From Elusimicrobiota bacterium (GTDB lineage: Bacteria > Elusimicrobiota > Elusimicrobia > UBA1565 > UBA9628): DNA of 64,000 bases. A program made the translations under genes and the position numbers. Below, piece after piece: positions 40,260-56,871 of the stretch. The DNA lies in the NCBI GenBank assembly GCA_027452025.1, contig DAIDHI010000010.1, positions 1-64,000 on the forward strand. The letters are read 5' to 3'. Each line of letters starts with the position of its first letter. Within the stretch, counting starts at the first letter, position 1. The notes beneath the pieces are model-generated. The model was not told the origin of the DNA and did no database searches. It was given only the letters and a program-made list of their open reading frames with translations.

Positions 40260-41266
40260 TGTGACTCCATCAGCCGGCTGGCGGCCTCGAACACGCGGCC
40301 GGCGGGCAGTCCGTCGAGGCATTCGAGGCGGTAGGGGCAGCGGTTGAGGCGGCAACCGATGCAAGGCAGCTCCTCCCTGCGCACGACGACATGGCGCGCG
40401 CACGGAGGGTTCCAGCTCGTCGGGTCGCTGCTGCCGTGCACGGTCACCGTCGGCACGCCGAGGGCCACGGCCATGTGCTTGGGGCCGTTGCAGTTGGTGA
40501 CCACGAGCCGGCAGCCGGAGAGCAGCTGCGCCGCTTCCTTGAGCGTGCGCGTCGGCGGCGTGGCCGAGGCCCCTTCGCCGATGGCCGAGGCGACCTCCTC
40601 GGCCAGAGGCCGTTCTCCGGGGCCCCAGAACACGAGCAGGCGGCAGCCGTAGCGCTTTCGCAGCATGCGGCCGAGTTCGGCGTAGGAAGCCGCCGGCCAG
40701 CGGCGCGTCGGCTTGCGCGAGGCGGGCACGAGGCCGATCACGTTGTCGCGTGCCGCCGGGCCCGTCAGATAGAGCTTGGGCAGGAAGTCCGCGCCGTCGG
40801 AGGGCACGCCCAGGGGCGCGAGCATGAGGATCTTTTCCAGCGCGTTGTAGACGGGCTTTTCGGGCTGCGGGAGGAGCCGATTGTAGGCCCAGCGGTGGGA
40901 GACGCGCTGCGGTCCCGCGCGGACGGCGGCCCCGCTTGCGCCCGTCAGCAGGGCGCTGCGCGGGTTTCCCAAGAGATCGATGACCCAGTCGTAGCGTCGC
41001 GCGCGGACCTTGGCGGCCCAGCGCAGCGACGACAGCAGCCCTCGGCCATCGTAGATCCAGACGCCCGCGTGCGGGTTGCCCTCGAGCGCCTGCGCGCCCG
41101 GCGCCTCGACCAGGATGTCGAGCCGCGCCTCGGGATAGCGGCGCTTGAGGGCGGCCAGCGCCGGCGTGATGAGGATCACATCGCCGATGCGGCGCAGCTG
41201 GATGACCAGGATCGCGTTGGGTGTCAGACGTTGACTTGTTGACTTCTCAACGATCGGTTCGGTCAT
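40256..41266 (-). CDS. GT9 heptosyltransferase-type enzyme with element-derived N terminus
   Basis: 336 residues. The GT9 fold is clear: ILVIQLRRIGDVILITPALAALKRRYP at the N terminus and the C-terminal donor region (PTVTVHGSSDPTSWNPP), with a Cys-rich end PCIGCRLNRCP. Such enzymes add heptose to the LPS inner core. The first 16 or so residues (MTEPIVEKSTSQRLTP) are encoded by the loop and one arm of the palindromic element at 41219-41293. The conserved GT9 start normally begins almost directly at the ILVIQ strand. No other start codon lies between the element and this strand. lpxK overlaps its stop. Confidence 0.85.
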   Translation of the reverse strand: MTEPIVEKSTSQRLTPNAILVIQLRRIGDVILITPALAALKRRYPEARLDILVEAPGAQALEGNPHAGVWIYDGRGLLSSLRWAAKVRARRYDWVIDLLGNPRSALLTGASGAAVRAGPQRVSHRWAYNRLLPQPEKPVYNALEKILMLAPLGVPSDGADFLPKLYLTGPAARDNVIGLVPASRKPTRRWPAASYAELGRMLRKRYGCRLLVFWGPGERPLAEEVASAIGEGASATPPTRTLKEAAQLLSGCRLVVTNCNGPKHMAVALGVPTVTVHGSSDPTSWNPPCARHVVVRREELPCIGCRLNRCPYRLECLDGLPAGRVFEAASRLMESQ

Positions 41267-41293
41267 AAGTCAACAAGTCAACGTCTGACACCC
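41219..41293. repeat. Palindromic element, copy 2 (27-bp perfect arms), fused to a GT9 gene start
   Basis: Arms 41219-41245 and 41267-41293 are perfect reverse complements around a 21-nt loop. The outer end reads GGGTGTCAGACG, and the arm contains a direct GTTGACTT-GTTGACTT repeat. Copy 1 has a matching layout: GGTGYCWGRC end and a twofold TTRAC unit. The element exactly fills the space between the deacetylase stop (41295) and the body of the GT9 gene. It provides that gene's ATG (41264-41266) at the inner edge of its right arm. Confidence 0.85.
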
Positions 41294-41294
41294 G

Positions 41295-42110
41295 TCAGAG
41301 TCTTGCCCGTCCCCGGGTCAGGTTGAGGTAGAGGTCGAGCATGAAGTCGTCGCCGCGCACGTAGAGCCGCCGGATCGCGCCCATCTCCGGCTTCCAGGCC
41401 GCGGGGGAGATCCCCTGCCGGAAGGCGAAGTCGAAGAAGTAGCCCGCGTCTCGCGCCGCTTGCCGGACCTGCGGCACGAAGGCGCCGGCGCCGTAAGGAT
41501 AGGCGAAGCCAACCATCTCGCGGCCCAGCTTTTCTTCCAGGCGCTTCTTGCTCTCGACGAGCTCCCAGCGGACGTCTTCCGCGGGGATCGCGGCGAGGTT
41601 GCGATGGCGCATCGTGTGCGAGCCCATCTCCATGACGCCGCCCTCCTGCATCTCGCGGATCTGGGCCCAAGTCAGCATCGGCACGTGGCGTTCCGTCGCC
41701 GGGTCGTGCCAGGCGTTGTGGCCGTCCATCATCTCGTAGACGAGAAAGATGTTGCCCTTCATCCCGAGTTCCTTGAGGATCGGATAGGCTTCCGTGTAGT
41801 TGTTGGCGTAGCCGTCATCGAAAGTCACGAGCACCGGCTTTTGCGGCAGCGGCGTCTTCGCGATCAGGGAATCTCGCCATTGGCTGAACGTGATCGTGGT
41901 GTAGCCTCGCTTCTTGAGATACTCCATCTGGCGGCGAAACTGCGAGGTCTTTACCCACAGGGCCTTGAGGCGCGAGCCCTCGGGATAATCGCCCACCTTG
42001 TGGTAGACCAGGACGGGCATTCCGCCCGAAATCTTGCGGCGCCACCAGTTCCAGCGTCCGCTGGCTCCGGCGGCGACGGCGAAAGCGGCGGCTGAGGCGG
42101 CGGCGATCAC
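41295..42110 (-). CDS. Polysaccharide deacetylase (NodB domain), membrane-anchored
   Basis: 271 residues from GTG 42110, overlapping the GT2 stop. The N-terminal hydrophobic anchor is VIAAASAAAFAVAAGAS. NodB-type carbohydrate esterase 4 motifs are complete: LVTFDDGYANN (catalytic and metal Asp pair), MGSHTMRHRNL (metal His-x3-His), VGFAYPYGAG and the C-terminal region. It probably removes N-acetyl groups from a surface glycan. Its place between core glycosyltransferases suggests LPS core or a linked polymer as substrate. Confidence 0.88.
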   Translation of the reverse strand: MIAAASAAAFAVAAGASGRWNWWRRKISGGMPVLVYHKVGDYPEGSRLKALWVKTSQFRRQMEYLKKRGYTTITFSQWRDSLIAKTPLPQKPVLVTFDDGYANNYTEAYPILKELGMKGNIFLVYEMMDGHNAWHDPATERHVPMLTWAQIREMQEGGVMEMGSHTMRHRNLAAIPAEDVRWELVESKKRLEEKLGREMVGFAYPYGAGAFVPQVRQAARDAGYFFDFAFRQGISPAAWKPEMGAIRRLYVRGDDFMLDLYLNLTRGRARL

Positions 42111-42865
42111 CCTGGGCGCTCCAACCTTTTCAGTTTGGCATATTTGAGCCAGCTGTGCCACGCGGCCAGCCGCGCCCACGTCAGCCCCGGGCCGCCGTCG
42201 AGGACTCCGAGCTTGACGAAGGCGCGCACGCCGAACTCCCAGGGGCCGATGAGATAGTGCCAAGGGCGGAAACGCCGGCCCGCCGCGAAGCGTTTTTGCG
42301 CCGCCAGGTCCGTATAGCGCTCCAGCTTGCCCATGTAGTCGGCGATGTCGTGGTAGGGCTGGTGCAGGACGCGTCCCGGCCCGCGGTAGCGCTCGACGCG
42401 CCCCTCCACGGCCGCTCCCTCGTGGACGTATCCTCCGGAAAAGCGGGCCTTCTCGCGTTTAAAGAGCCTGACGTGGCGCTCGCCGCCGAGGCCGCCGAAG
42501 CGCAGGTCGCGGCCGAGGAAGCGCACTCGGAAGGGCAAGGACCAGGCGTCGACGCCGGGCTGCCCCAGCAAGGCGGGAAGATCGCGCCGCAGCCCTTCGT
42601 CGAGGCGTTCGTCGGCGTCGATCCAGAGGACCCAGTCCTTGACGCACAGTTCCAGGGCGGCCTGGCGCTGCGCGGCGTAGTCGTCGAAGACTCGCCGCGC
42701 CGTCCTGGCTCCGGCACGGCGGGCGACTTCCTCCGTCTTGTCGGCGGTGGCGGCGTCGACCAGCACGACGGCTTCGTCGACGACGCCCCGCAGGGACTCC
42801 AGGCAGCCCGGCAGGTCCCGTTCCTCGTCCTTGGCGATGATGAGAGCGCTAAGCGACGGCGCCAT
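42107..42865 (-). CDS. GT2 family glycosyltransferase (LPS core, WaaE/KdtX-like)
   Basis: 252 residues. The GT-A core starts SLSALIIAKDEERDLPGCLESL, then VLVDAATADKTEEVARR, the DxD-type metal site WVLWIDADERLDEGL, RLFKREKARFSGGYVHEG and FVKLGVLDGGPGLTWA. This set is typical of the small WaaE-like enzymes that add glucose to inner-core heptose. It overlaps the upstream GT4 gene by 17 nt. Confidence 0.88.
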   Translation of the reverse strand: MAPSLSALIIAKDEERDLPGCLESLRGVVDEAVVLVDAATADKTEEVARRAGARTARRVFDDYAAQRQAALELCVKDWVLWIDADERLDEGLRRDLPALLGQPGVDAWSLPFRVRFLGRDLRFGGLGGERHVRLFKREKARFSGGYVHEGAAVEGRVERYRGPGRVLHQPYHDIADYMGKLERYTDLAAQKRFAAGRRFRPWHYLIGPWEFGVRAFVKLGVLDGGPGLTWARLAAWHSWLKYAKLKRLERPG

Positions 42866-43991
42866 AGACGCCCTCCATGCGCGCGGCCAGGCGCTCGAGG
42901 CCGAAGCGCCCTAGGTTTTCCAGCGCCGCTGCCGACAAGCGCGCGCGCAGCGCCGCGTCGCCCTCCAGACGCAGGAGATTGCCGGCCAGCGCCTCGGCAT
43001 CGCGCGGCGAGGACAAGAGGCCCGTGCGGGCGTCCTCGACGATCTCCGGGATGCCGCCGGCCGAGGTCGCGGCGATGGGCACGCCGCAGGCGGCGGCTTC
43101 CAGCAGCACGCTGCCCATGCCCTCGCCCCACGAGGAGAGAGCGAAGGCGTCGATCGCCTTAAGCAGCGCGGAAGGCTCGCGCTGGCCGAGGAAGAGGATG
43201 CGCTCGCCCAGGCCCATCTTGCGCACGCTGGCGATCAGGCGCGGGCCCTCGGGGCCCTCGCCGGCGATGAAAAAGCGCGCCTGCGGCCGCTTGAGCAGGA
43301 CGATGAGCGCGGCGGCGACGAGCGTGTCGTGGTCCTTGTGGGGCACCAGCGCCGCGAGATTTCCGACCCAGAAGCCGTCCTCGGGAAGGTCCCATTCGGC
43401 GCAGAGCGCGCGCCGGGCCTCGAGCCGCTGCCGCGTCGACGGCCTGGCAAAGCGCGCGGCGTCGAGCCCGGCCCAGGCGCATTCGCGCTCTCCCGAGGGG
43501 AAGGCGTCGGGCACCACCTCGACTTTGCCGTCGCCCAGGCCGTCTTGGGCGAGCACGCGGGCGATGGCCTGCGAGACCGCGACGACGCGTCCGGCCGAGT
43601 CGTATTTGAGCCGCCGCGAAAGGCCGCCGCGCAGGGGAAAGTCGACGCGCCGATGGGCGACGAACGGCGCGCCGCCGAGCGCGCGGCAAAGGGCCGCGGC
43701 CGCCGCGGCGTGGGCGGTGTGAGCGTGGACGACGGGCCGCCGCGCCGCGCGGCAGAGTACGCGCAGGCGCCAGGCGGTGACCGGGTCCCACTCGCCCCAG
43801 AAGGGAGCGAAGGCGGTCTCAAGGCCTGCCGCCGCCGCCTCGCCGGCCAGGGGCGAGCCGCGGCGACAGACGACGACGTTGCGGTGGCCGCGGGCGCGCA
43901 GGGCGCAGGCTAGATAAAGCAGCTGCCGCTCGCCGCCGCGCAGGCCGCGCTCGCCGTCGACGTGAAGGACGTCGAAGGGCGCCAAGCTCAT
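42849..43991 (-). CDS. GT4 family glycosyltransferase
   Basis: 380 residues from ATG 43991. GT-B fold: N-terminal FDVLHVDGERGLRGGERQLLYL with the acceptor-side Gly loop, VVAVSQAIARVL, then the donor domain with VGNLAALVPHKDHDTLVAAA, FFIAGEGPEG and the E(x)7E motif in LSSWGEGMGSVLLEAAACG. Probably adds a sugar to the LPS core or another surface glycan. It is coupled to the next GT4 gene by a 4-nt overlap. Confidence 0.88.
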   Translation of the reverse strand: MSLAPFDVLHVDGERGLRGGERQLLYLACALRARGHRNVVVCRRGSPLAGEAAAAGLETAFAPFWGEWDPVTAWRLRVLCRAARRPVVHAHTAHAAAAAALCRALGGAPFVAHRRVDFPLRGGLSRRLKYDSAGRVVAVSQAIARVLAQDGLGDGKVEVVPDAFPSGERECAWAGLDAARFARPSTRQRLEARRALCAEWDLPEDGFWVGNLAALVPHKDHDTLVAAALIVLLKRPQARFFIAGEGPEGPRLIASVRKMGLGERILFLGQREPSALLKAIDAFALSSWGEGMGSVLLEAAACGVPIAATSAGGIPEIVEDARTGLLSSPRDAEALAGNLLRLEGDAALRARLSAAALENLGRFGLERLAARMEGVYGAVA

Positions 43992-45049
43992 GCGGCCGCG
44001 CCCGCCGGCCGCGCCGCGGGCACCCCCTGATACACCGCTTCCGTGGAGCGGACGAAGGCCTCCAGAGTGAAGCGCTCGTCGTAGCGCGCGCGCGCGCGCG
44101 CGGCTAGGCGCGCCGCCGTGTCCGGGTCCTGGAGCAGCCGGGCCAAGGCGCCGGCGAGCGCGTCCGGATCGCCGGGCGCGACCAGCAGGCCGGTCTTGCC
44201 GTGCTCGACGACGTCGGGCAGGCCTCCCACCGCGCTCGCGACCACCGGCCGGCCCGAGGCCATCCACTCAAGCGCGGCGCGCGACACGGCCTCGGAGCCC
44301 AAGGACGGCACGCAGCCGACGCGGCAGGACGCGAGGAAGGGCCCGGGGTCGGCCACGCGGCCGAGGACCTCGTAGGAGCCCGGGCAAAGGCGCGAGCGCG
44401 CCATGCCGCGAATCGCCTCCGCAAGCCGTCCGGAGCCGGCGAAGCGCAGGCGCACGGGCGCGCCGCGCGCCTGCACGCGCGCCGCGGCGTCGATGAGGAT
44501 CTCGTGGCCCTTGACCGGGTCCAGGCGGCCCAAGAGCCCGACCACGGGCTCCTGCGGCAAAGCCGCGGGAGGGCCGGGCTGGGCGGCGACGCCCTGCAGC
44601 ACCACCTCCACGCGCGCGCCGGGGAAGGCCCGGCGCAGGTGCGCGGCGATGGCGCTGTTGGCGGCGACGTAGGCATCGGTGCGCCGCGACAGGGCTCGGG
44701 CGAGGGCGTGGCCGCGCGGCAGGCGCGCGTCGGCGCACGTGCGCACCAGGCGCGCGGTCGAGCCCGCGGCCAGGGCGGCGGCAAGGGAGTGGCTGGAGCC
44801 TGTGTGGGCGACCAGGACCTCGAAGCGGCCCTGCCGCACGACGCGACGCAGAAAAGGCAGCGACAGCCAGGGATGGAGGACTTCGCGGGTCTTGAGCCCG
44901 GCGGCGCGCGCCTGGGCCGCGGCGGGCGAGCCGGTGCGCCCGAAGAAGCCGATCGAGTGGCCTCGGGCGGCCAGCCCGGCGGCGAGCGTCACGGCGTAAT
45001 GGGCGATGCCCGAATCCCAGGGCTCGTCGTGAAGGTGGAGAATCCTCAT
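43988..45049 (-). CDS. GT4 family glycosyltransferase
   Basis: 353 residues from ATG 45049. MRILHLHDEPWDSGIAHYAVTL opens the acceptor domain, then YVAANSAIAAHL. The donor domain has VVGLLGRLDPVKGHEILIDA, LRFAGSGRLAEAI and SEAVSRAALEWMASGRPVVA, a variant of the E(x)7E motif. The C-terminal tail is Ala/Pro-rich. It overlaps the GT9 fusion stop and the next GT4 start by 4 nt, so the three are made together. Confidence 0.86.
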   Translation of the reverse strand: MRILHLHDEPWDSGIAHYAVTLAAGLAARGHSIGFFGRTGSPAAAQARAAGLKTREVLHPWLSLPFLRRVVRQGRFEVLVAHTGSSHSLAAALAAGSTARLVRTCADARLPRGHALARALSRRTDAYVAANSAIAAHLRRAFPGARVEVVLQGVAAQPGPPAALPQEPVVGLLGRLDPVKGHEILIDAAARVQARGAPVRLRFAGSGRLAEAIRGMARSRLCPGSYEVLGRVADPGPFLASCRVGCVPSLGSEAVSRAALEWMASGRPVVASAVGGLPDVVEHGKTGLLVAPGDPDALAGALARLLQDPDTAARLAARARARYDERFTLEAFVRSTEAVYQGVPAARPAGAAA

Positions 45050-46626
45050 CGAGGCGCCGGCCGGGCCGCTTCCATCATCTGCAGAGCGCTCTGCCACACC
45101 TGCTCCGTCGTGATGAGCTTCATGCACAGGAAGTGGCCGTGGGGACAGGCGCGCGAGCCGTGCAGGCCGCAGGGCCGGCAGGCCAAGTCGGCTTCGAGCA
45201 CCCGATGGGCCGGCCCGTAGGGAAAGAAGCCCAACTCTCGGGTCGTGGGCCCGAAGATCGCCAGCGTGGGCACGCCGCAGGCGGTGGCCAGGTGCATGGG
45301 ACCCGAGTCGTTGGTGACGAAGAGCGAGAGGCGCGGCATGAGGGCCTTGAGGTCGGAAAGGTCGGTCTTTCCCGACCAGTCCAGGGCCTGCGAGGAGCGG
45401 GCGATCTCCGCGCAAAGAGGCGCGTCCTTGGGACCGCCGATGAGCACGGCGCGCCTTCCCGAGGCCTCCAGGCGGCGGCAGAGCTCGGCGAAGCGCTCGG
45501 GCGGCCAGCGCTTGGTCGGCCAGGCCGAGCCGGGATGGACGCCGACCAGCGGACGGGCGGCGGACACGCCGTCTTGCGCCAGGCGCCCGCCGACGCGCTC
45601 TTGCGCGGCCGGATCGGGCGCCAGGTAGAGGCCCTCGTCGAGGCGGATGCGCAGGCCCGGCTCCAGCGGCTTGAGCAGGGCGAGGTTTCTCTCGAGGTCG
45701 TGCATGAGCCAGGTGAACGGCACCGTCTCGGTCAGGAACAATCGTCCGGCGCTCGAGTCGAAGCCGATGCGGCGGGGGATGCGCGAGAGATAGGCGAGCA
45801 GAGCGCTGCGCAGCGAGCGGTGGGGGATGATGGCCAGGTCGAAGCGCTCCTCGGCAAGTCTGGCGGCCAGCCGCCAAGGTCCGCGCAGGCCGGCGTGCGC
45901 CCCTCGCTTGTCGTCGCGGATGACGGCGTCCACCCAGGGGGAGCGCTCGAAGATCTCGGCCGTGGCGGGCAAAGTCAGCACGGTCAGCCGGCAGCGCGGC
46001 ATGACCTCCTTGATGTCGCGCGCGAGGGGAATCGTCAGCAGGCTGTCGCCCAGAAAGGCGCTCTGGATGAGAAGGACGCGAGCGGCGAGCGGCAGCGAAC
46101 CGTCCCCGGCTCCATCGGGAGATGCCTTGGGCCTGGGGACCGCGCCCGTCTCGTCGAGCGAGACGTCGGAGGCCGTGGCCAGCGCCGGCTCGGGGCGAGG
46201 CCGCAGCCCGAAGGCGGCCAGGGCGTCGAGGTAGCGCTCCACGACGTGCTTTTCCAGGACCGGCGACGTCCAGCCGAAGGTCACGAAGACCCGGCGCGCC
46301 AGCGCGCATTTGCGGTAGACGGCACGATGGGGGATGTTGGAAAGCCGGCTGAGCAGGCGCGATCGGAGGTTTCCGTGCAAGTCGAGCAGATGGGTGAAGC
46401 CTCTCGAGCGCGCCAGGCGCAGGGCTTGGCGCAGGCCGGTGAAGCGGATCACCTCATCGACGTAGGGATTGCCTTCAAGGACGCCTGCGAACTGCGGCTT
46501 GACCAGGACGGCGATGCGCGCGTTGGGCCACTGCGCCTTGAGGCTTTTGTAGACGGGGACGGTGAGGATGACGTCTCCCAGAGACGACAGGCGCACGACC
46601 AGTATCTTCGGTTCCACCGAGGACAA
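45046..46626 (-). CDS. GT9 heptosyltransferase with an extra N-terminal half GT9 domain
   Basis: 526 residues, against about 350 for the family. Residues 1-150 match only the N-terminal Rossmann half of GT9 (ILVVRLSSLGDVILTVPVYK, HLLDLHGNLRSRLLS). A Pro/Ala/Asp linker (about 160-185) follows, then a complete GT9 enzyme (VLLIQSAFLGDSLLTIPLAR ... GVHPGSAWPTKRWPPERFAEL ... VTNDSGPMHLATACGVP). The first copy lacks the ADP-heptose-binding half. TTG 46626 or GTG 46617 are possible starts; a -10-like TAAAAT abuts the TTG. Probably heptosyltransferase II-like. Confidence 0.85.
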   Translation of the reverse strand: MSSVEPKILVVRLSSLGDVILTVPVYKSLKAQWPNARIAVLVKPQFAGVLEGNPYVDEVIRFTGLRQALRLARSRGFTHLLDLHGNLRSRLLSRLSNIPHRAVYRKCALARRVFVTFGWTSPVLEKHVVERYLDALAAFGLRPRPEPALATASDVSLDETGAVPRPKASPDGAGDGSLPLAARVLLIQSAFLGDSLLTIPLARDIKEVMPRCRLTVLTLPATAEIFERSPWVDAVIRDDKRGAHAGLRGPWRLAARLAEERFDLAIIPHRSLRSALLAYLSRIPRRIGFDSSAGRLFLTETVPFTWLMHDLERNLALLKPLEPGLRIRLDEGLYLAPDPAAQERVGGRLAQDGVSAARPLVGVHPGSAWPTKRWPPERFAELCRRLEASGRRAVLIGGPKDAPLCAEIARSSQALDWSGKTDLSDLKALMPRLSLFVTNDSGPMHLATACGVPTLAIFGPTTRELGFFPYGPAHRVLEADLACRPCGLHGSRACPHGHFLCMKLITTEQVWQSALQMMEAARPAPR

Positions 46627-46644: not shown

Positions 46645-49600
46645 TCAAGAGGGGCGGCTCACGGCGACCAGGGGCGCTCGCCCGCGAGAGGCCGCCTTCC
46701 AGAGCTTCGCCAGGGAGGCGTCCAGGCGCGCCCGCCCTGCGCTTGCCAGCAGGAGGTCCTGGAGCTCCTTCTTGGTGCCGCGGCCGCGCAGCCAGCCCTC
46801 GAAGAGGCGCACGGCCGCCTGGTCGCCGCCGCAGCCGGCGGCGTCGAGGAACGCTTCCATCAGCGGCACGGCGGCGCCCTCGTCAAGCAGGCGCCGGACC
46901 GCCTCCCAGACGCCGGTTCCTGTTGCCACGAAGGCCGGAGGATCCTCGACGAAGGCCGCCAAGCGCCCGAGGACGCGCGACAGGCCGGCCGCGGCGGGCT
47001 CCTTCTCCCAGTGCCGAGCCCCTTCCTTGAGCTCGGCCAGGGCCTGGGCGTGCAGGGAGCGCACGGCTTCGGCGTAGCCGGGCGTGTCCTGCGCGGGCAG
47101 CGGACCGACGCCCAGCGGCCTTCCGGCGCGCCGCGCCTCGTCGAGCTGCGCGCAGAGCGCGGGGCCGAGGATGGAGCGCAGCGAGGCTTCCTTATCGTCG
47201 CAGACGGCCAGCATGAGCTTGGCCCAGTCGCGAGGCTTGAGGGCGTAGCGCTTCCAGAGCGCCTCGTCGTCTCGCGCCGCGGCGATGTCGGCGGCGTCTC
47301 GCGAAAGCTCCGCCGGCGGCAGCGGCGCGTCCCAAGGCGAGATCCTGCGGTACTCGGCATAGGAGGGAAGGCCGCCGAGCCGGAGCCGGCCCTCCCGGTA
47401 GAGCCGATAGGCGGCGGGCAGGGCCAGGGCGGCGGCCGCAAAGCGGTAGCGCGCCGGCTCCTGCACGCTGGCGCGCGTGCGCACGACGGCGGTGGCGGCG
47501 GGAAAATCGAGGTTCCATCCCGCGGCCGAAAGGCCGGAGCGGATCTCTCCGGGAATGAGCGAGAGCCCGTCGGCCGGAGGGTCCTGGACGAAAAGCTCGT
47601 CGACGGTCCAGCGCGCCCGCGAGCGCGCGCCCAGGCGCGAGCGCAGGCCCGCGCGCTCGGAAACGGTCTCCAGGCCGTCGGCGATCGACTCTCCGTTGAG
47701 CGTGAGGCCGACGTCGGAGACGCCGCCCGCGTATTTGGCCGCCATGACGTGGACGTAGGCGTTCTCTACCAGGATGCGGCCGATGTTGTGCGCCGAGACC
47801 TGCTTGACCCGCACGACCTCCGTGCCCTGGCGGCCGCTTTCGGCGTCGTCGTACTCGCGCAGGCGCTCCACGCGGATGTCCGACAGGGCGCCGCTCTGAT
47901 CGCGCACCGGGACCAGGACGGCCTCGCGCAGCCGGCCGCCCGCGGCCGCGGTGCGCACGATGACCTCGTCGGCGCCCCCGAAGACCGTGAAGAAGCCGAT
48001 GCCGAAAAACCCCGCCGCGCCCTTCTTCATGCGCTGCGACAAGGCGTCGGCGATGCGCCGCGAGGCGGCGGCGTCGTCCTGGGCGAGGGATTGCCGCAAG
48101 AACGCCTTGAGCGCCTCATCGGCGACGGCGCCTTCTTCGAAGAACTCCGCGAGGACGCGTTCGAGCTTTTCCTCGGTTGCGCCCCCGAGGGCGAGGAACC
48201 CGCGGACCTCGTCGGCCAGGGTCTTGGTGGTGGCTTCCGGCACGAGCATGGCCTTGATAAGCCGTCCCAGCTTCATGCCCACTCCGTCCCTGACCGAGAC
48301 CAGCCAACGCGAGCCGTCCTCGCTGAGAAAGCTGCGCAGCCGGATGTCCGGCAGAGCGACCGGACGGCCCTCGCGCCGCGCCTCTCGCGCCGCGTCGCGC
48401 GCGTTTTGAACCAATTCGCGAATCCACACCGGCGCGGAAAGGCCCTGGTTGACGACCACGCCGCGCACCGAGGCGAGATCGGCCGCCTCGCCGGGTCCCA
48501 GCGCGCCGACAGCGCGCGCGAAGGCGTCGAGCCCGCCGGCGTCGAGCTCGCCGTCGGAGACCCGGCGGGCCGCCGCGATGAGGCGGCCCAGCGACCCGAC
48601 GTCGTCGACCGAGCGCGCGGCGGGCCCGCGGGGGGCGTCGTCGGCCTCGCGCCGCAAGAGGCTGTCGGCGCCCTCGCGAAGCATCTGGAGGTAGACCTGC
48701 GCGGCCGCGGGCAGGTCGCTGAGCGCCTTGCCGGCGGGGCCGGAGAGGTAGGCCAGGGGCTGGGCGCGCGCGCCGCCCTCGACGACGACGGGCGTCAGCA
48801 GCGCCTCGCGCAGATCATCCAGGATCTCCGGCGCGGCCTCGAGCAAGTCGAGATAGTGGGCGGCCGCCGCGGTCCGAAGGCCCGCCTCGCCGCGGTAGAG
48901 CCGGTCGGGAATCTCGAAAGCCTGCCGCAGCCAATCCGGCCGATGAAGGTTGGCGCGCGCCAGGCGCTCCAACCGCTCCAGGGTTTCCGGCTGGATGGCC
49001 GCGCGCGCGGCCTCCACGCCGAGGAACAGCCGCGCCAGGGACCAGCGCGGCATCATGACGGCGCGATAAGGCGCCGCGGCTCTCGTCTCAGGGCTCAGGC
49101 GCGCCAGCTGCGGCCCATCGGCGCGCAGCGCGCGGGAGAGCTCTCGGGCGTCTCTCGAAAGCATCAAGGGCCCCGCGCCTTCCCAGTCGTCCAGCGGCTC
49201 GAAGAGCGCCGGGGCGAGCCCCGTCGCCGCCGCGCAGGCCAGCGAATAGAGCACCTGAGGGCCGTAGGCCAGCGCAAAAGCCTTCGGCGCCGAGTCGCGG
49301 GAGACGGCGCGCAGCGCGCCGTCGTCGTTGTAGGGGCGGTAGTAGACGGTGTCGCCGTCGCGCACCGCCGCGCGGGGATGGACGCCGGCGAGCTCGGCGA
49401 TGGGCGCGCCGTCGGCGTCGCAGAAGAAATCGCGGCGGCGGCCGTCCTGCGCGCCTTCGACGAAGAACAGGTCCGGCCCGAGGCGCGAGACGTTGACGAC
49501 GGACGCGCCGTCGACGACGGCGGGCGACCAGCGCTCAAGACGCGCGTCGCAGGCCTCGACGCCGCCTTGGCCGGCGGCGAGGAGCTTGCCGCCGATGACG

Positions 49601-52600
49601 GCCAGCGGGCGTTTGTCGAGGTCGAGCGGGCCGCCGCCGTGCGCGAGCAGCCGGCCGCCGACGCGCTCGCCTTTGACGGCGCGGACGAAGGAGTAGACGG
49701 TCCGCCCGTCGATGGTCCAGGCCGAATCGAGGGCCAGGGAGGACCAGGGCAGGCGGGCCGGCATCGCGGAGACCTCCCAGCGGCCGCGATCGCCGCAGAC
49801 GGCGAGAGTCTGGGTCTCGGAGCCGTTGAGACCCCTGCTTCGCCGCACCGCGAAGCGGTCGACGCCCTCCCGGCTCTCGATGGGGACGATCTCGGCCGAG
49901 GCCGAGCTCAGGTCCATGACGACTTGAACGCGTCCCGATTCCGGCTCCAGGCGCGCCAGGCTGCGGCCGATGACGGCGTAGGAGCGCGGTCCCAGGGCGG
50001 CGACGAGCTTTGGGGTGTGCCAATAGGAGCCCAGCGTGCGCGGCCGGCCGCCGTCCAGCACGCGCAGGCGGCCGCCCGTCTTCCAGTTGTTCTGATCGAC
50101 GTAGAGGGCGCAGCGGCCGCGCACCAGCGGCTCGCTGCCGCGCACGGGCAGGGGCCGTAGCCCCGCCTCGGTCTGCGCGAAATAAGCGCCGCCCCGACCG
50201 CGGTAGACCGCTCCCCAAGGCGTCGGCCGCTTCTCGAAGGAGGACGCGCGGGCCAGGTCCCGCCACCAAAGCCAGGCCAGCGGCAGGCGCTGCCGCCGCC
50301 ATCCGAAGGCCGCCCAGGCCCGGCGCAGCGGGGAAACGCCGCGGCGCAGGCGCCACAGCCGCCACAGGGCCCGACCGACGAGGAGGAGGCTGCCGCCGAT
50401 GGTTCCCAGAAGGACGGCGAGCAGGGCCCAGGCGCCCGGGCCCGAAGGCGCGGGCTCGGAGGGCAGCGGCGGGCGAACGCGGCGCAGCCAATGCTGGAGC
50501 TCGCGCAAGACCGGGTTTGGCCTCGGCGCGTCCAGGCCTGAGATCACCTCGGGCGCCGCATGGAGCAGGGGCATCAGCGTCGTTGTCTCGACGAACTGCC
50601 ATTTCCCGTCGACGGCGACCAGGACCTTGGCGTGCCCGACGAGGTTCTGGTAGAAGACCTGCCCGCGGCTGTTTTCCAGGCCCACGTAGGCGGCGGGCAG
50701 GCCGACGTAGCGGGCCATGAGGTAGTAGTAGAGGCTCGAGGTATTGCAGATGATCGGGATGCGTTGTCCCGAGTCGAGATAGGCCTGCGCCGTCGAGCTC
50801 CAGCTGATGCCGTTGAAGACGAAGGGCTGGTCGTAGTCATAGACGAAGTCCTCGGCCATGAGGCGCTCGACGGCGGCTTTCTTGGCCGAATCGGGGGCGC
50901 TCTTGACGGGGTCGAGCGCCCGCCTCCACTGCTGGGGAAAATCTCCGAGCTCGTTGGCCGGCAGCGGCGCCGAGGCCTGCACGGCGTTGACGTCGGCGTG
51001 GAGCTCGATGCGATAGCTGACCATGGCCGGGCCCGTATAGCCGGGGACCGTCAAGGAGTCGTCGGTCTGGTCGAAGCTGAGCGTCCGCAGCGGGCGCCCT
51101 CGATCGTCCTCGACGGAGACGCCGGCGATGGCTCCATCGGGCTTGTTGAACAGCCTCTCGGCGTCTCCATTCTGGAGCCACAGCCGGTAGCGGACCTGGA
51201 TGCTGCCGATGATCGGACCGGAGGCCGGCGCCGCCCAGCGCGCGTCGTCGGGCGACCAGCCGCCGTCGGAATCCAGCCGGGCCTTGACCGAGCTGACGAA
51301 GAAGGGTCCGACGGGCGCGTCGGTCACGAAGCCGCCGAAGGGCAGGCGCGGCCGGCCATCGCGCGCTTTGGCGCCCGGGCGGGGGATCAGCGGCGCGACG
51401 TTTCCCAGGGCGTCGTCGTGGCTGGCGTGGAAGGCGGTCGACCAGGTCATCGTCTGCGGCGCGGGCTGATGCCAGGAGGGCGCGAGGCGGTAGGCCAGCG
51501 GAGCGGCAGCAAGCGTTGCCGCCAGCACGGCGGGGCCCAGCCAGCGCGCGGCGCGCGCCCGCAGGCGCGCGAGCGCTCCGGGCGGCGGCGGGGGAGCCCG
51601 CGAGGCGGCGGAGCGCGACAGCTCCCGCTCGATCCTGGCCACGAGCACCTCGGGGTCCTCGCGGCTTTCCGCCAGGGCCTGATCGATGACGACGACTCCG
51701 TCGTCGACGACGGCGAGGGCTCCGTCGGGCCGCAGGGGCCGGGAGAAGAACTTGGCCTGGGTGCGCCGCTGCAGGGCCTGCCAGGCGGGCAGGCGCGTCA
51801 GCGAGGGAGGCAGGGGCTCGAAGCCGGCGTTGGCGAAGTCGACGGGAGTAGGGGAGAAGAGCGCCTCGTCCAGGAATACGATCTTGTCGCTGACTCCGGC
51901 CAGAGGCGCCCACCGGGCCGCGTTGGGCAAGAAGGCCGCTCCGCTCTTGCGGTAATCTTCGAGCAGGCCAGAACGGGCCAGGCGCTGGCGCAAATACCAG
52001 AGCAGGTCCGTGGCCGTCGCCGCGTCGCCCCGGGTCAGGCCCTTCTCGCGAGAAGGCTGCTTGTCCCGGATGAGCGCGGCCAGGCTGTTGATGAGGGCGA
52101 AGCGCTGCGGCGAGCGGACGGAGGGGTCGGTAAGGCTCTCGATGAGAAGGCGCAGCCCGCGGACGGCGGCCTTGAGGGATTGGTCCGCCGTGACCAGCGA
52201 GACGACGCCGCGGTCCTCCGTCAGCTCCGTGTCGTGCGGCAGCTCGATGAACACGTCGCCGGCGAGATTAAGCCTGCGGCCGTCGGAATCGAGGGCATCG
52301 CGCTCGATCTCCACGCCGGCGACTCCGAGCGCGGCGTCGGGCTCGGCGGCCGGCCGGTAGAGCAGCCGGGCCGGCTCGCCGGTGGCGGCCACGGGCTTAT
52401 CGGTGCCGTAGGGCTTGAGATAGCGCTCGAAGACCTCCTTGAGCCCCATACCGCGGCCCTGGTCCTCGATCTCGTAGCCGGTGCCGTCGATTGCGACCGT
52501 CACGGCGGGAGCGGCGGCCTGGGCGACGGGGCCTTCGCGGCCCCACTGACGGAAGTCCTGCGGCCGGTTGATGGCGTCGCCGCCGGCCCAGAGGATGGGC

Positions 52601-53718
52601 CCGCGGTCGTTGGCGCGCAGCTTGCGCTCGAGGAACTCCCGGCGGTGCGCGACTTGGGCGGGCGTGAAGTCTTTGTAAAGCCGAAAGAGCGTGCCCCGCC
52701 GATTCGAGGCGGCCAGCCTGTAGTCGAAGTAGACCTCCGAGTCCTGCCGCCAGAAGACGAAGCGCGCCTGCGTGCCGTCGCCCTTGGAGGTCTCCATGAC
52801 CAGGCGGTCCTGCGGCTTGCTCAGCTCGCCTAGGACCTGCAGGCCGCCCACGCCGAATCGGCCCACCTTGCGCCCTCCGGGCGTGGTCGCGTCCTGGGCG
52901 TTGGCGACGACCTCGAGCATGGCCTGGGCGGGATCGGCGGCCTGGCGCGAAAGGAGAGTGTCCATCCGCCTGGTGTCGCCGCCGGCAAACAACGTCTCGG
53001 GATCGGCTTGGCGATAGTCTTGCTCGGTCCGCGCCAAGCTCGCGGCCAGCCGCGCCTCCATGACGGCGGCGGCGCGCGAGAGGGGGATGGCGCGGGTGGG
53101 CTGGAAGGGCAGCGGCGCGGCGGCGCCGGCCGGCGCCGGAGGGGCGCGCAGTCCGCCGAGGACGGCGTCGCCCTCCGAGAGCCGGGGGGCGGCGGGGGCC
53201 AGCCGCGGCTGCGCATGGCCCTGCGGCGAAGCGGCGACCGGATTTTCGGAGGCATCGCGGGCCCAGGACCGGCGGGCCTTCTCGATGGCGCGCGCCGAGG
53301 CGCCCGCGGCCGCCTCCAGGCGCGGCGCGCGGGCCGGGGCGAGGGCCGCGAGCAATGCGGCCCGCTGCGGCCGCGCCGCGAACTCCGCCGCGGGGGCCTC
53401 GGCCGCGTAGGCATCGGCCTTGGCCCGGACGAGGGCGGCTTGCGCCGAGACCTGGGGGAGGGCCGAAACCTCGGCGACCCCAACGCCGGCCTGCGCCATC
53501 ACGTCGGCGAAGGTCTCGGCCTGCGCCGCGGTGAGCGGGGGCAGCCCGAGCGACTGCAGCAGCGGCCGTGCCGCGGGCGAGGGCAGGAAGGCCGTCCACG
53601 CGCCGGTCGCGTCGGAAGCCCGCGACGACCCGGCAAAGGCCGCGCAGGCCAGCGGCAGAAGGGCGGCGACGAGAGCGAGACGCAGCGGCGGAGTCCGGCG
53701 CCCGGGGAGCGGGTTCAT
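46645..53718 (-). CDS. Giant exported/membrane protein with two Hsp90-type (GHKL) ATPase regions and a transglutaminase-like domain
   Basis: 2,357 residues from ATG 53718, with GGGAG Shine-Dalgarno. Order: signal peptide (12-34); Ala/Pro-rich helical region (35-210); GHKL region 1 with LEVVANAQDA (N-box, N273), GRFGVGG (286-292) and EDQGRGM (418-424) then YGTDK; helical part to about 700; membrane helix (728-745); beta-rich region, then a transglutaminase-like core with Cys991 (CNTSSLYYYLMARYVGLP), His1029 (GHAKVLVAVDGKW) and Glu1044; membrane helix (1095-1118); a propeller-like beta region (about 1165-1475); a helical region; GHKL region 2 with IRELVQNARDA (N1772), RDGVGM (1810-1815) and GFFGIGFF (1903-1910); helical C-terminal 350 residues. 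No known protein with this layout comes to mind. Codon use looks like its neighbours and there is no frameshift. Confidence 0.8.
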   Translation of the reverse strand: MNPLPGRRTPPLRLALVAALLPLACAAFAGSSRASDATGAWTAFLPSPAARPLLQSLGLPPLTAAQAETFADVMAQAGVGVAEVSALPQVSAQAALVRAKADAYAAEAPAAEFAARPQRAALLAALAPARAPRLEAAAGASARAIEKARRSWARDASENPVAASPQGHAQPRLAPAAPRLSEGDAVLGGLRAPPAPAGAAAPLPFQPTRAIPLSRAAAVMEARLAASLARTEQDYRQADPETLFAGGDTRRMDTLLSRQAADPAQAMLEVVANAQDATTPGGRKVGRFGVGGLQVLGELSKPQDRLVMETSKGDGTQARFVFWRQDSEVYFDYRLAASNRRGTLFRLYKDFTPAQVAHRREFLERKLRANDRGPILWAGGDAINRPQDFRQWGREGPVAQAAAPAVTVAIDGTGYEIEDQGRGMGLKEVFERYLKPYGTDKPVAATGEPARLLYRPAAEPDAALGVAGVEIERDALDSDGRRLNLAGDVFIELPHDTELTEDRGVVSLVTADQSLKAAVRGLRLLIESLTDPSVRSPQRFALINSLAALIRDKQPSREKGLTRGDAATATDLLWYLRQRLARSGLLEDYRKSGAAFLPNAARWAPLAGVSDKIVFLDEALFSPTPVDFANAGFEPLPPSLTRLPAWQALQRRTQAKFFSRPLRPDGALAVVDDGVVVIDQALAESREDPEVLVARIERELSRSAASRAPPPPPGALARLRARAARWLGPAVLAATLAAAPLAYRLAPSWHQPAPQTMTWSTAFHASHDDALGNVAPLIPRPGAKARDGRPRLPFGGFVTDAPVGPFFVSSVKARLDSDGGWSPDDARWAAPASGPIIGSIQVRYRLWLQNGDAERLFNKPDGAIAGVSVEDDRGRPLRTLSFDQTDDSLTVPGYTGPAMVSYRIELHADVNAVQASAPLPANELGDFPQQWRRALDPVKSAPDSAKKAAVERLMAEDFVYDYDQPFVFNGISWSSTAQAYLDSGQRIPIICNTSSLYYYLMARYVGLPAAYVGLENSRGQVFYQNLVGHAKVLVAVDGKWQFVETTTLMPLLHAAPEVISGLDAPRPNPVLRELQHWLRRVRPPLPSEPAPSGPGAWALLAVLLGTIGGSLLLVGRALWRLWRLRRGVSPLRRAWAAFGWRRQRLPLAWLWWRDLARASSFEKRPTPWGAVYRGRGGAYFAQTEAGLRPLPVRGSEPLVRGRCALYVDQNNWKTGGRLRVLDGGRPRTLGSYWHTPKLVAALGPRSYAVIGRSLARLEPESGRVQVVMDLSSASAEIVPIESREGVDRFAVRRSRGLNGSETQTLAVCGDRGRWEVSAMPARLPWSSLALDSAWTIDGRTVYSFVRAVKGERVGGRLLAHGGGPLDLDKRPLAVIGGKLLAAGQGGVEACDARLERWSPAVVDGASVVNVSRLGPDLFFVEGAQDGRRRDFFCDADGAPIAELAGVHPRAAVRDGDTVYYRPYNDDGALRAVSRDSAPKAFALAYGPQVLYSLACAAATGLAPALFEPLDDWEGAGPLMLSRDARELSRALRADGPQLARLSPETRAAAPYRAVMMPRWSLARLFLGVEAARAAIQPETLERLERLARANLHRPDWLRQAFEIPDRLYRGEAGLRTAAAAHYLDLLEAAPEILDDLREALLTPVVVEGGARAQPLAYLSGPAGKALSDLPAAAQVYLQMLREGADSLLRREADDAPRGPAARSVDDVGSLGRLIAAARRVSDGELDAGGLDAFARAVGALGPGEAADLASVRGVVVNQGLSAPVWIRELVQNARDAAREARREGRPVALPDIRLRSFLSEDGSRWLVSVRDGVGMKLGRLIKAMLVPEATTKTLADEVRGFLALGGATEEKLERVLAEFFEEGAVADEALKAFLRQSLAQDDAAASRRIADALSQRMKKGAAGFFGIGFFTVFGGADEVIVRTAAAGGRLREAVLVPVRDQSGALSDIRVERLREYDDAESGRQGTEVVRVKQVSAHNIGRILVENAYVHVMAAKYAGGVSDVGLTLNGESIADGLETVSERAGLRSRLGARSRARWTVDELFVQDPPADGLSLIPGEIRSGLSAAGWNLDFPAATAVVRTRASVQEPARYRFAAAALALPAAYRLYREGRLRLGGLPSYAEYRRISPWDAPLPPAELSRDAADIAAARDDEALWKRYALKPRDWAKLMLAVCDDKEASLRSILGPALCAQLDEARRAGRPLGVGPLPAQDTPGYAEAVRSLHAQALAELKEGARHWEKEPAAAGLSRVLGRLAAFVEDPPAFVATGTGVWEAVRRLLDEGAAVPLMEAFLDAAGCGGDQAAVRLFEGWLRGRGTKKELQDLLLASAGRARLDASLAKLWKAASRGRAPLVAVSRPS

Positions 53719-53763: not shown

Positions 53764-54957
53764 CTAGGGCCGGGCAGCGCGGAGGAGCCAGCGCGTCGAA
53801 GCGGCCATAAAGAGCGCGACGGAGGCGTCGCGCAGCAAGAGCAGCGGCCAGGGCCAAAAGGGCCGGCCGATAAAATCCCATGGCCCCAGCAGCCAGGGGC
53901 TGCCGCAGCAGTAGGCGTGGACGGCGTAGAGATATGCGCCCACGAGCGCGGCCGACGCGACGGCGAAACGGCGGCTGCGCAGCAGCCAAAACGGCGCGCT
54001 CCAGGCGAAATATTGGAACGCGACGACGCTGGAGAATGCGTAGATGAAGGCGTAGGCGCCGGCCACCGTGGCGCCGAGCTCGGGCGCGTCGCGGCGGCCG
54101 CGGCGCAGCCAGGAGTAGGCGGTCAGGCCCGAGGCCCAAAACCAGAAGGAGTGCCGCACGTACCAGAAGAGAGCGGAAACGAGCGCGGGTCCCGGCCCTG
54201 GGAGCCGCCGGCACAGCCCCAGCAGCGTGCCGATGCCCCAGACCCACGTGCCGCCGGGCGTGCGCAGCAGCTGGCCGTGGTAGAGGAATACGCGCTCGAC
54301 GACGACGGCGGGGTCGACGAGCAAGGCCGGGGCGTAGCCCGCCAGGGCCGCCAGCGCCGCGGCGGCGCAGAGGCGCAGCCGTTCGCCGGGCCGCGAGAAC
54401 GCGAAAAAAAAGACCGGAGCGGCGAAAGCCGCGGGGAGCTTGAGGGCGCAGCCCAGTCCCAAGAGCGCGCCGCAGAGGCCCGGCCGGCCGCGAGAGGCGG
54501 CGAGGACGCACAGGAGGAGATCGGCCGCGACGAGGCAGTCGACGTTTCCGTGGAACGACGACACGAGGATGCCGACCGGGTGAAGCGCGTAGGCGGCCGC
54601 GGCGGCCCAGCGCCAGCGGCGGCCTTCCAGGACCCGGCCGAGCAGCCAAGCGTTGCCGAGGTCGGCCAGGCCGAGGACCCCGCGAAAAACGGCGGGGAAG
54701 GGCAGGCCCCGGTCGCGGCAAAGGGCCCAAAGCAGGGAGACGAGCCAGCTCATGAGCGGCGGCACGTCGTTGGAGGAGGCCGGCAGCCGGTACTGCCCGA
54801 TCACGCCGAAAGCGCGGATGCCCGCGGCGACCTCGGCCCAACGCTGCATGTCGGAGGTGCCCTGCGTGGCCCAGGCGAGCGTCAGCCGCAGCGCGGCGCT
54901 GAAGATGAAGACGGCCCAGAGCCACCGCCCCGGCCGCTCCCAGAACGGCGGCCGCAT
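53764..54957 (-). CDS. Multi-pass membrane glycosyltransferase (GT39/mannosyltransferase-like, GT-C)
   Basis: 397 residues from ATG 54957, with about ten hydrophobic helices. The first periplasmic loop holds TQGTSDMQRWAEVA, where the Asp may be the catalytic acidic residue of GT-C enzymes. SNDVPPLMSWLVSLLW and LHPVGILVSSFHGNVDCLVA resemble polyprenyl-phosphate-dependent GT-C enzymes. The donor would be a lipid-linked sugar. Located 1 nt after waaA, so it may modify LPS or a glycoprotein. Exact family not certain. Confidence 0.7.
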   Translation of the reverse strand: MRPPFWERPGRWLWAVFIFSAALRLTLAWATQGTSDMQRWAEVAAGIRAFGVIGQYRLPASSNDVPPLMSWLVSLLWALCRDRGLPFPAVFRGVLGLADLGNAWLLGRVLEGRRWRWAAAAAYALHPVGILVSSFHGNVDCLVAADLLLCVLAASRGRPGLCGALLGLGCALKLPAAFAAPVFFFAFSRPGERLRLCAAAALAALAGYAPALLVDPAVVVERVFLYHGQLLRTPGGTWVWGIGTLLGLCRRLPGPGPALVSALFWYVRHSFWFWASGLTAYSWLRRGRRDAPELGATVAGAYAFIYAFSSVVAFQYFAWSAPFWLLRSRRFAVASAALVGAYLYAVHAYCCGSPWLLGPWDFIGRPFWPWPLLLLRDASVALFMAASTRWLLRAARP

Positions 54958-54958
54958 C

Positions 54959-56236
54959 TCAAAGGCCGCGGGCCGAGAGCACGGGCTCGAGCCAGGCGAG
55001 CGTGCGCCCGGCGGCGCCGCGCAGGCTTTCGGCGGTCTTTCGGGCGAGGCGGCCTTGCTCTTGCGCGCGCGCGGGGTCGCCGACGAGCTCGACGAGGAGC
55101 TGCGCCAGGCGAGCGCCGTCCTCGGCGCAGAAGGCCGCGCCGGCGCTCTCCAGCAGGCGCGCCGTCTGCGCCGTGTGCTCGGTGTGCGGGCCAAAGAGCA
55201 CCGGGCAGCCCGCCAGCGCCGGCTCGAGCACGTTGTGCCCGCCGACGGGCACGAGCGTGCCTCCCACGAACGACGCGAAGGAGTGAGGGAAAAAGGACGC
55301 GAGCACTCCGAGGGTGTCGAGCACGAGGGCGTCGGCCTGGGGCGCGAGTTCCTCGGGGCGCGACCATCTGGCGGTCTTCAGGCCGAAGCGGCGCGCCGTC
55401 GCCACGGCGTCGGCGGCCCGCTCGACGTGCCGCGGCGCGAGGACCAGCCGCAGGCCGGGGGCGCGCTTGCGCGCTTCGAGGAAGGCGGCGATGACCTGCT
55501 CTTCCTCGCCCGGATGAGTGCTCGCGGCCGTGATGACGCGAGACTGTCCCCAGCCCAGGCGCTCGAGGGCGTTCTCGGCCGGCTTCGGGTCGGCCGCGCG
55601 GAGGCGGTCGTATTTCAGATTGCCCGTGACGACGACGTTGCCGGCGCCGAGCGCGCGGAATCGAGAGGCGTCGTCCTCGGTCTGCGCGCAGACCAGCTCC
55701 AGGCGCGCGAGGAAGGGAGCCAGCAGCGGCCTGACGAGCCGGTAGCGCGCGAAGCTGCGCGGCGAGACCCGCCCGTTGACCAGGACGACGCGCGCGCCCC
55801 GGTCGCGCGAGAGCTCGATGAGGTGGGGCCACAGCTCGGTCTCGACCAGGACGACGACCGAGGGCCGCACGGTCTTGAGAAAGCGCGCGACGGCCCAGCC
55901 GAAGTCGAGCGGGGCCAGCCCCGCCGCCGACACGCCGGGAGTCTCGAGCGCGCGGTCGCGGCCCGCCGCCGTGGTCGTGGTCAGCAGCACGGCGGGATGG
56001 GACGGCCGCCCGGCGAGGCGCTCGACGAGCGGGGAGGCGGCGGCTACCTCTCCGGCGGAAGCGGCGTGCACCCAGATGGGCGCGGGCCCGCCCGGGGCCC
56101 GGCCCAGGCGCTGCGGCAGCTCGCGCGACAACGCGCGCAGCAGCCCTCGGCGGGGAGACAACGCGAAGCGCAGGACGATCGCCAGGGCCGCGAAGGGCAA
56201 GAGGGCGTCTTCGGCGAGAAGGACGAGGTTCCTCAC
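54959..56236 (-). CDS. waaA: 3-deoxy-D-manno-octulosonic acid transferase
   Basis: Transfers Kdo from CMP-Kdo to lipid IVA. 425 residues from GTG 56236, normal for the GT30 family. N-terminal membrane anchor (LLPFAALAIVLRFAL), acceptor-domain HAASAGEVAAASPLVERL, VVLVETELWPHLI and GRVSPRSFARYR. Donor domain: VTGNLKYDR, AASTHPGEEEQVIAAF, APRHVERA, and SFVGGTLVPVGGHNVLEP. Start overlaps the DUF374 stop (GTGA). With lpxK, kdsA and kdsB it completes Kdo-lipid A assembly. Confidence 0.95.
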   Translation of the reverse strand: MRNLVLLAEDALLPFAALAIVLRFALSPRRGLLRALSRELPQRLGRAPGGPAPIWVHAASAGEVAAASPLVERLAGRPSHPAVLLTTTTAAGRDRALETPGVSAAGLAPLDFGWAVARFLKTVRPSVVVLVETELWPHLIELSRDRGARVVLVNGRVSPRSFARYRLVRPLLAPFLARLELVCAQTEDDASRFRALGAGNVVVTGNLKYDRLRAADPKPAENALERLGWGQSRVITAASTHPGEEEQVIAAFLEARKRAPGLRLVLAPRHVERAADAVATARRFGLKTARWSRPEELAPQADALVLDTLGVLASFFPHSFASFVGGTLVPVGGHNVLEPALAGCPVLFGPHTEHTAQTARLLESAGAAFCAEDGARLAQLLVELVGDPARAQEQGRLARKTAESLRGAAGRTLAWLEPVLSARGL

Positions 56237-56871
56237 GAAGCCGCCTCGGCGTCGGCTTGCGCGGTGATCTCCTCCAGCGCGCGCCGCAGCTCCTCGGCCT
56301 TCGCGGCCGGATCGTCGCCGGGACCCACCTCGATGGGGGGGGCGCAGACGACGACGGCGCGGGAAAAGGGCAAGGGTACCTGGAAGCGGTCCCAGGACCG
56401 GGGAAACTCGAGCTTGCGGCTGACGCCGTTGGTGATCGGCACGATCGGAGCGCCGAGCTTCTGCGCGAGGAAGATCACGCCTTCCTTGACCTGGCGCGCC
56501 GGGCCTTTCGGCCCGTCCGGGGTAAAGCCCACGTCGAAGCCCTCGGCCATCACCGCCATCATGTCGCGCAGCCCGGCCGCGCCGCCGCGCGAGGAGGAGC
56601 CGCGGCTGGCGCGGATGCCCGAAAGGGCCATCGTGCGGGCGATGAGCTCGCCGTCCCGGCTGCGGCTGACCAGCACGCTGATCGGCTCGCCGCGGTGCGT
56701 CCAGGTGAAGAAGACCTGGCGCTGATGCCAAAATGCGTAGATGAAGCGCCGGCCGGCGCGCCGCAGGGCCTGCGGGTGCTCCCGGCCTCTCCAGCGCAGG
56801 CGCGTCGTGCGGCCGACGAGCGTGATGTAGGAGTAAGCGAGATAGGGGACGGCCGAGCGCAGCAGGCTCAA
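56233..56871 (-). CDS. DUF374 lysophospholipid/lipid A acyltransferase family protein
   Basis: 212 residues from a TTG start. DUF374 motifs: IYAFWHQRQVFFTW, VSRSRDGELIARTM, GIRASRGSSSRGGAAGLRDMM and the diagnostic FTPDGPKGPARQVKEG. N-terminal segment is hydrophobic enough for membrane association. Such genes often sit beside waaA and are thought to acylate lipid A or phospholipids. It overlaps waaA by 4 nt. Confidence 0.88.
   Translation of the reverse strand: MSLLRSAVPYLAYSYITLVGRTTRLRWRGREHPQALRRAGRRFIYAFWHQRQVFFTWTHRGEPISVLVSRSRDGELIARTMALSGIRASRGSSSRGGAAGLRDMMAVMAEGFDVGFTPDGPKGPARQVKEGVIFLAQKLGAPIVPITNGVSRKLEFPRSWDRFQVPLPFSRAVVVCAPPIEVGPGDDPAAKAEELRRALEEITAQADAEAAS

Follow-up and report, generated by a model that had tools for sequence, protein, structure and literature searches.

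ATP-driven closure of paired N-terminal domains is established for Hsp90, MutL, and GyrB dimers. In Hsp90, HtpG, and TRAP1, the N-terminal Bergerat fold carries the N-box and the G1, G2, and GT motifs, and the middle domain supplies a catalytic-loop arginine, which is R380 in yeast Hsp90. Of the known giant proteins, Sacsin comes nearest, with several Hsp90-like modules (SRR repeats) arranged in tandem (PMC3710099). For the giant open reading frames (ORFs) of Omnitrophota and Elusimicrobiota, few domains have been annotated and the function is uncertain (PMC10066038, PMC12057145). Here we describe a giant gene of an uncultured Elusimicrobiota bacterium, found in the first 64,000 nucleotides of contig DAIDHI010000010.1; this whole stretch is referred to as the window. 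Its 2357-residue product contains two Hsp90-type modules, regions I and II, and the motif order of region I is permuted. We propose, with moderate confidence, that this one chain forms a two-headed clamp of the Hsp90 ATPase type, driven by ATP and coupled to a peptidase-type domain.

46645..53718, minus strand: giant ORF of 2357 residues with an ATG start and a GGGAGA Shine-Dalgarno-like sequence immediately 5'

The gene has its own TATACT-like box upstream, in addition to the Shine-Dalgarno-like sequence. Full-length relatives were found in two independent Elusimicrobiota genomes, L030 in G219 (2357 residues, 48% identity) and L031 in G028 (2380 residues, 53% identity), and the nearest named relatives are Elusimicrobia records. 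The single ATG-started ORF and its near-full-length conservation bear out a reading made from the sequence alone (hereafter, the sequence-only reading) that this is one uninterrupted, real gene. A Pfam search with the complete protein gave no match, and neither did a scan of the genome contigs with the single protein as the query; an alignment-based scan found nine loci.

Region II, the canonical-order module

47689..48468, minus strand: region II, canonical-order Hsp90-type N domain, residues 1751–2010, detected by profile A3 against the PDB
48391..48417, minus strand: N-box ELVQNARDA, residues 1768–1776, with E1768 and N1772 invariant in a nine-row alignment
48274..48288, minus strand: G1 motif DGVGM, residues 1811–1815, with D, G, and M invariant
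47989..48012, minus strand: G2 motif GFFGIGFF, residues 1903–1910, located by alignment
47389..47688, minus strand: start of an Hsp90-like middle domain, residues 2011–2110, with R2082 in the position of the arginine of Hsp90 SREMLQ

The N-box, G1-like, and G2-like motifs expected of a GHKL/Bergerat ATPase occur in region II in the canonical Hsp90 order (RELVQNARDA, 1767–1776; DGVGM, 1811–1815; TTK, 1830–1832; GFFGIGFF, 1903–1910), as the sequence-only reading had proposed. A search of the PDB with the single sequence matched HtpG alone (E 0.02). The nine-row profile of region II, A3, found human TRAP1 (E 2.5e-9) and HtpG (E 5.4e-9) in the PDB, and in whole genomes it reached true HtpGs of ~620 residues at about 1e-4. 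When 26 region II members were compared with full-length HtpG using hhalign, 271 columns were aligned with an E value of 1.7e-16, ending at HtpG column 334 of 594; unlike in Hsp90, no C-terminal dimerization domain was seen in this alignment. R2082 is aligned with the arginine of the Hsp90 SRE sequence in the catalytic loop and is invariant in nine members. Judged by these alignments, region II is an Hsp90-type N domain followed by the first part of a middle domain that includes the catalytic-loop arginine, the two together spanning residues ~1751–2110.

The G1 motif is one residue short in the Elusimicrobiota members. The Omnitrophota relative L036 has a complete DQGVGM, and its region II reaches 30.5 bits with the Pfam model HATPase_c, above the cut-off of 26.4. 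In the window clade, an insertion of ~65 residues (~1835–1900) lies between TTK and the G2 loop; it is common to the members without the HExxH motif described below, except L118.

Region I, the permuted module

52354..52956, minus strand: region I, Hsp90-type N domain with the order N-box, G2, GT, G1, residues 255–455, aligned to HtpG by hhalign
52888..52914, minus strand: N-box EVVANAQDA, residues 269–277 (E269, N273, D276), with invariant E and N
52837..52866, minus strand: G2 loop VGRFGVGGLQ, residues 285–294, directly after the N-box, located by alignment
52396..52476, minus strand: displaced G1 segment YEIEDQGRGM...GTDK, residues 415–441, matching HtpG template columns 41–75
51574..52353, minus strand: post-ATPase part of region I, residues 456–715, with a conserved LPHDTxLTEDRG (R503) in alignments

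An N-box/Gly-loop set had been proposed near residues 269–441 of the protein. The motifs are indeed located there (ExxxNxxD, 269–276; GRFGVG, 286–291; GT, 342–343; DQGRGM, 419–424; GTDK, 438–441) and belong to a Bergerat homolog; the earlier reading had missed that their order is not canonical. In 16 aligned members the order is N-box, G2, GT, G1. The HtpG template columns matched by the displaced G1 segment fall between the N-box and G2. In the 17 permuted members whose N-box is recognizable, its glutamate and asparagine never vary.

The permutation was examined by cutting the 16 members into the N-box, the G1 segment, and the part from G2 to the end, and comparing them with 16 HtpG N domains using hhalign. 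In the natural order, region I matched HtpG in three separate pieces (102 columns, E 3.1e-10; the G1 piece, E 2.6e-6; and 15 columns of the N-box), whereas rearrangement to N-box, G1, G2 yielded one colinear alignment of 171 columns with an E value of 5.2e-20. A control in which G1 was placed first gave 149 columns (E 1.3e-14), and reversed region I sequences gave no match to HtpG. Rearrangement also improved the match of the permuted region I to the canonical-order region I of relatives (1.7e-29 vs 1.5e-19) and to region II (4.1e-12 vs 2e-7); in the latter comparison the G1-first control was about equal (2.2e-12). In terms of homology, region I is a Bergerat domain of the Hsp90 type in permuted form. 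R503 is its candidate for the catalytic-loop arginine, assigned by motif alone.

Evolution of the motif order

Both motif orders occur in both modules. L113, L115, L120, and L126 have region I in the canonical order, and L114 and L117 have a permuted region II. In a tree of region II sequences alone, all members whose region I is unpermuted fall into one clade (ultrafast bootstrap, UFBoot, 99), where L119 and L121 were labeled as such members from fragmentary matches. L114 and L117 form another clade, with a support of 100, elsewhere in the tree; support is low for the deep branches. Taking Hsp90 as an outgroup with the canonical order, the most parsimonious history would be a single permutation in region I and a separate one in region II. 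No description of a permuted GHKL or Bergerat domain was found in open papers. A Bergerat domain permuted by nature, in a family that also has unpermuted members and in which region II was permuted separately, would offer an unusual natural experiment on how folds evolve. A bolder proposal, improbable as a whole, is that the Bergerat fold tolerates displacement of the G1 strand/loop to behind the domain, and that this happened at least twice within a single family of exported giant ATPases with two heads, which would act together with a linked peptidase either outside the cell that makes them or within a prey cell.

Domains accompanying the ATPase pair

50545..50961, minus strand: transglutaminase-like domain, residues 920–1058, with C991, H1029, and E1044; weak by PF01841, hhalign E 5.6e-8
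49273..50205, minus strand: beta-propeller-like region, residues ~1172–1482, from the AlphaFold2 strand pattern and Foldseek
46648..47388, minus strand: C-terminal region, residues 2111–2357, without HExxH; relatives outside the clade have HExxH here

Wherever an ORF extends far enough in the 5' direction, region I comes before region II. In the window protein, a transglutaminase-like domain and a propeller-like region, both anticipated by the sequence-only reading, lie between the two. The Pfam model PF01841 matched the transglutaminase-like segment of the window protein below the cut-off (E 0.0081) and its best member at 3e-4. In an hhalign comparison of the window-clade domain with 16 transglutaminase cores of the same phylum (E 5.6e-8), Cys991, His1029, and Glu1044 were in register with the Cys/His/Asp of the cores, and the three residues are invariant in 5/5 sequences with the domain. 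The domain differs from PF01841 cores in having Glu for Asp at the third position and IICNTSS rather than a GNCEYF-type cysteine motif. Reversed sequences gave no match in the same comparison, a profile of the region gave no match to PDB sequences, and the AlphaFold2 model of the region was of poor quality. L108 also has a relative of this domain (E 1e-7). The propeller-like region has ~26 predicted strands, and its model matched prolyl endopeptidase, dipeptidyl peptidase IV (DPP IV), and other propeller proteins in Foldseek (E 1e-5 to 1e-7); this model is of low confidence (predicted local distance difference test, pLDDT, as high as 83 in places but 47.5 on average).

The window clade has no HExxH downstream of region II. 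Outside the group without HExxH, this motif follows region II by 226–310 residues in 15 of the 16 members and by 444 residues in the remaining one, L115; the background rate is 14/212 windows. With the transglutaminase-like domain in the window clade and HExxH elsewhere, both branches combine the ATPase pair with a putative domain or motif of the peptidase type, of a different class in each.

This architecture sets the protein apart from the closest described systems. Hsp90 is a single N-M-C polypeptide of 600–800 residues; the giant protein, unlike the Hsp90/HtpG/TRAP1 proteins of ~620 residues, has two modules per chain, one of them permuted, and joins them to a propeller, membrane helices, and peptidase-type domains. 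The NCBIfam model of the Sacsin N terminus matched best at residues 1765–1779, below its cut-off (E 2.5e-4). Sacsin differs in having three modules with ubiquitin-like (UBL), DnaJ (J), and HEPN domains, and neither a peptidase nor a permutation appears in that description (PMC3710099). Pfam found no UBL, J, or HEPN domain in the window protein. The giant ORFs of Omnitrophota, e.g., those of Ca. Velamenicoccus archaeovorus, resemble the present family in being very long with few annotated domains, and they come from the phylum of many of its members (PMC10066038); the paired Hsp90-like modules do not figure among the domains it names, and HATPase, Hsp90, and transglutaminase are absent from its main text. 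The conserved Hsp90-like pair with a peptidase-type domain offers a defined, testable core for part of the giant ORFs.

As a separate observation, the N-terminal ~600 residues of L021 (genome G202) form a QDVHWNIDAQRNL-type domain, similar in style to L034.

Membrane topology

53620..53718, minus strand: signal-peptide-like N terminus, residues 1–33, with a hydrophobic segment at residues 12–30 in a hydrophobicity scan
51484..51540, minus strand: weak transmembrane helix 1 (TM1), residues ~727–745, with an R-rich N-terminal flank; clear in L030 and L031
50377..50433, minus strand: transmembrane helix 2 (TM2), residues 1096–1114, with an R-rich C-terminal flank, from the hydrophobicity scan

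A simple rule recognized signal-peptide-like starts in 12 of the 18 N termini that are complete, and inspection by eye added L034 and L111; L035, L124, and L125 have no signal peptide. Genome G343 contains two family members, L035 and L125, neither with a signal peptide. Such starts alongside conserved ATP-site residues uphold the puzzle of an exported ATPase raised by the sequence-only reading, and raise the question of where such proteins work. Two membrane helices had also been proposed: TM2 stands, and TM1 is weaker in the window protein and clear in its two full-length relatives.

The earlier reading had left the two ATPase regions on the same or opposite sides of the membrane. The number of scored helices between them is zero or even in 20 of 23 members, so that the two regions most likely share one side. 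Odd counts were obtained for L110 and L120, and the window protein has one scored helix plus TM1 below the threshold. In L114, L122, and L116, no further helix was scored beyond the signal-peptide-like start, and both ATPase regions would therefore be outside the cytoplasm. The flank charges in the window clade (+4 to +6 in the relatives for the N flank of TM1 and +2 to +5 for the C flank of TM2) appear to favor the opposite picture, with both heads in the cytoplasm.

Proposed mechanism and alternatives

The permuted region I and the canonical region II form a conserved pair, and by likeness to the Hsp90, MutL, and GyrB dimers they would most likely close on each other upon ATP binding. The closure would constitute an intramolecular clamp without the C-terminal dimerization domain of Hsp90, and would probably act on a polypeptide that the attached peptidase-type domain handles, i.e., the transglutaminase-like domain (Cys-His-Glu) in the window clade and a metallopeptidase suggested by HExxH in most other members. 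Both heads would be expected to bind and turn over ATP. The clamp is supported by the Hsp90 matches of region II, by the fit of region I to HtpG after rearrangement, by the helix counts between the two regions, by the placement of HExxH behind region II, by the transglutaminase match, and by the glutamate and asparagine of both N-boxes, which are conserved across very diverged members. In L123, regions I and II are two adjacent genes (928 and 960 residues), as expected of interacting partners, which supports the pairing of the heads. Chaperone action and cross-linking, suggested by the sequence-only reading, are putative activities of the protein.

Several observations weigh against the clamp. 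The signal-peptide-like starts imply export to where ATP is normally absent. The AlphaFold2 model of region I is poor (pLDDT 60; predicted template modeling score, pTM, 0.39), and Foldseek gave non-significant GHKL matches alone (best E 0.39). The weak Foldseek result is partly due to the inability of a sequential aligner to follow a permutation; given the poor model, it neither proves nor refutes a Bergerat fold in region I. Comparison of the post-ATPase part of region I with the HtpG middle domain was not significant (E 0.25), and L110 lacks a recognizable region I N-box.

Among the alternatives, a giant exported surface protein, such as an adhesin or a predation coat, appears rather unlikely. 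Its Bergerat modules would bind a nucleotide or another ligand structurally or as sensors, without a working cycle of ATP hydrolysis. The signal-peptide-like N termini in most members, the lack of another membrane helix in L114, L122, and L116, the patchy occurrence in Elusimicrobiota, and the proposal of Omnitrophota giant ORFs as adhesins or predation factors (PMC10066038) are all consistent with it. However, retention of the catalytic glutamate and asparagine of both N-boxes is unexpected in purely structural domains, and Pfam did not find adhesin domains. Alternatively, an exported protein might be active only in an ATP-containing compartment, e.g., the cytosol of another cell, where ATP binding by the paired heads would switch on the attached peptidase. 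Export signals, intact ATP sites, and peptidase-type domains occurring together would suit this possibility, as would the predatory or parasitic lifestyles proposed in Omnitrophota (PMC10066038); we consider it quite improbable. The window-clade charges at the R-rich flanks of TM1 and TM2 favor cytoplasmic heads, and three members have no signal peptide. A MORC- or paraMORC-like GHKL ATPase of a nucleic-acid defense system is very improbable. GHKL domains are known in such systems, and residues 401–435 weakly matched the BbrUII/HgiDII family of NCBIfam (E 0.27), but a PADLOC model search gave no match, restriction or methyltransferase neighbors were not seen, and the best profile matches are Hsp90s. 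Finally, an assembly join of two unrelated genes or a chance ORF is virtually excluded: the local GC content is 72–74% and long spurious ORFs are frequent in the window, but the GC content by codon position (0.76/0.54/0.90) is coding-like, and the entire protein aligns nearly end to end with the two independent genomes.

Distribution and genomic neighborhood

Carriers of the family were found in 9 of 341 Elusimicrobiota genomes, and 43 of 384 Omnitrophota genomes were matched, a minority of these by plain HtpGs. A few further members occur in the phylum of L035 and in that of the Firestonebacteria record L032 (G816, a 5580-residue ORF). The family, whose giant proteins are little annotated, spans Elusimicrobiota, Omnitrophota, and two more candidate lineages; most members exceed 1,600 residues, and the matched ORFs reach 9878 residues. 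In the family of the window, only two carriers were found among many genomes searched, which indicates an accessory gene. No relatives were found in plasmids or viral contigs.

The giant gene is surrounded by a lipopolysaccharide (LPS)-type block at window positions 40256–46626 and 53764–56871, encoding GT9 heptosyltransferases, GT4, a polysaccharide deacetylase, GT87, KdtA, and DUF374. A link with LPS synthesis, raised by the sequence-only reading, was not supported, since the surroundings are not conserved: the neighbors in L030, L031, and G202 are unrelated (exonuclease VII, acyl-AMP ligase, MiaB-like, FAD oxidoreductase, NUDIX, and radical SAM). The gene adjoining the close relative in L030 is convergent and encodes a papain-family cysteine protease (L030:11832-12905). 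The Firestonebacteria relative is followed directly downstream by a gene for a bacterial alpha-2-macroglobulin of 2103 residues (L032:4672-10980). The gene upstream of L021 in G202, located in L022, weakly matches the Tiki/ChaN family (6e-4).
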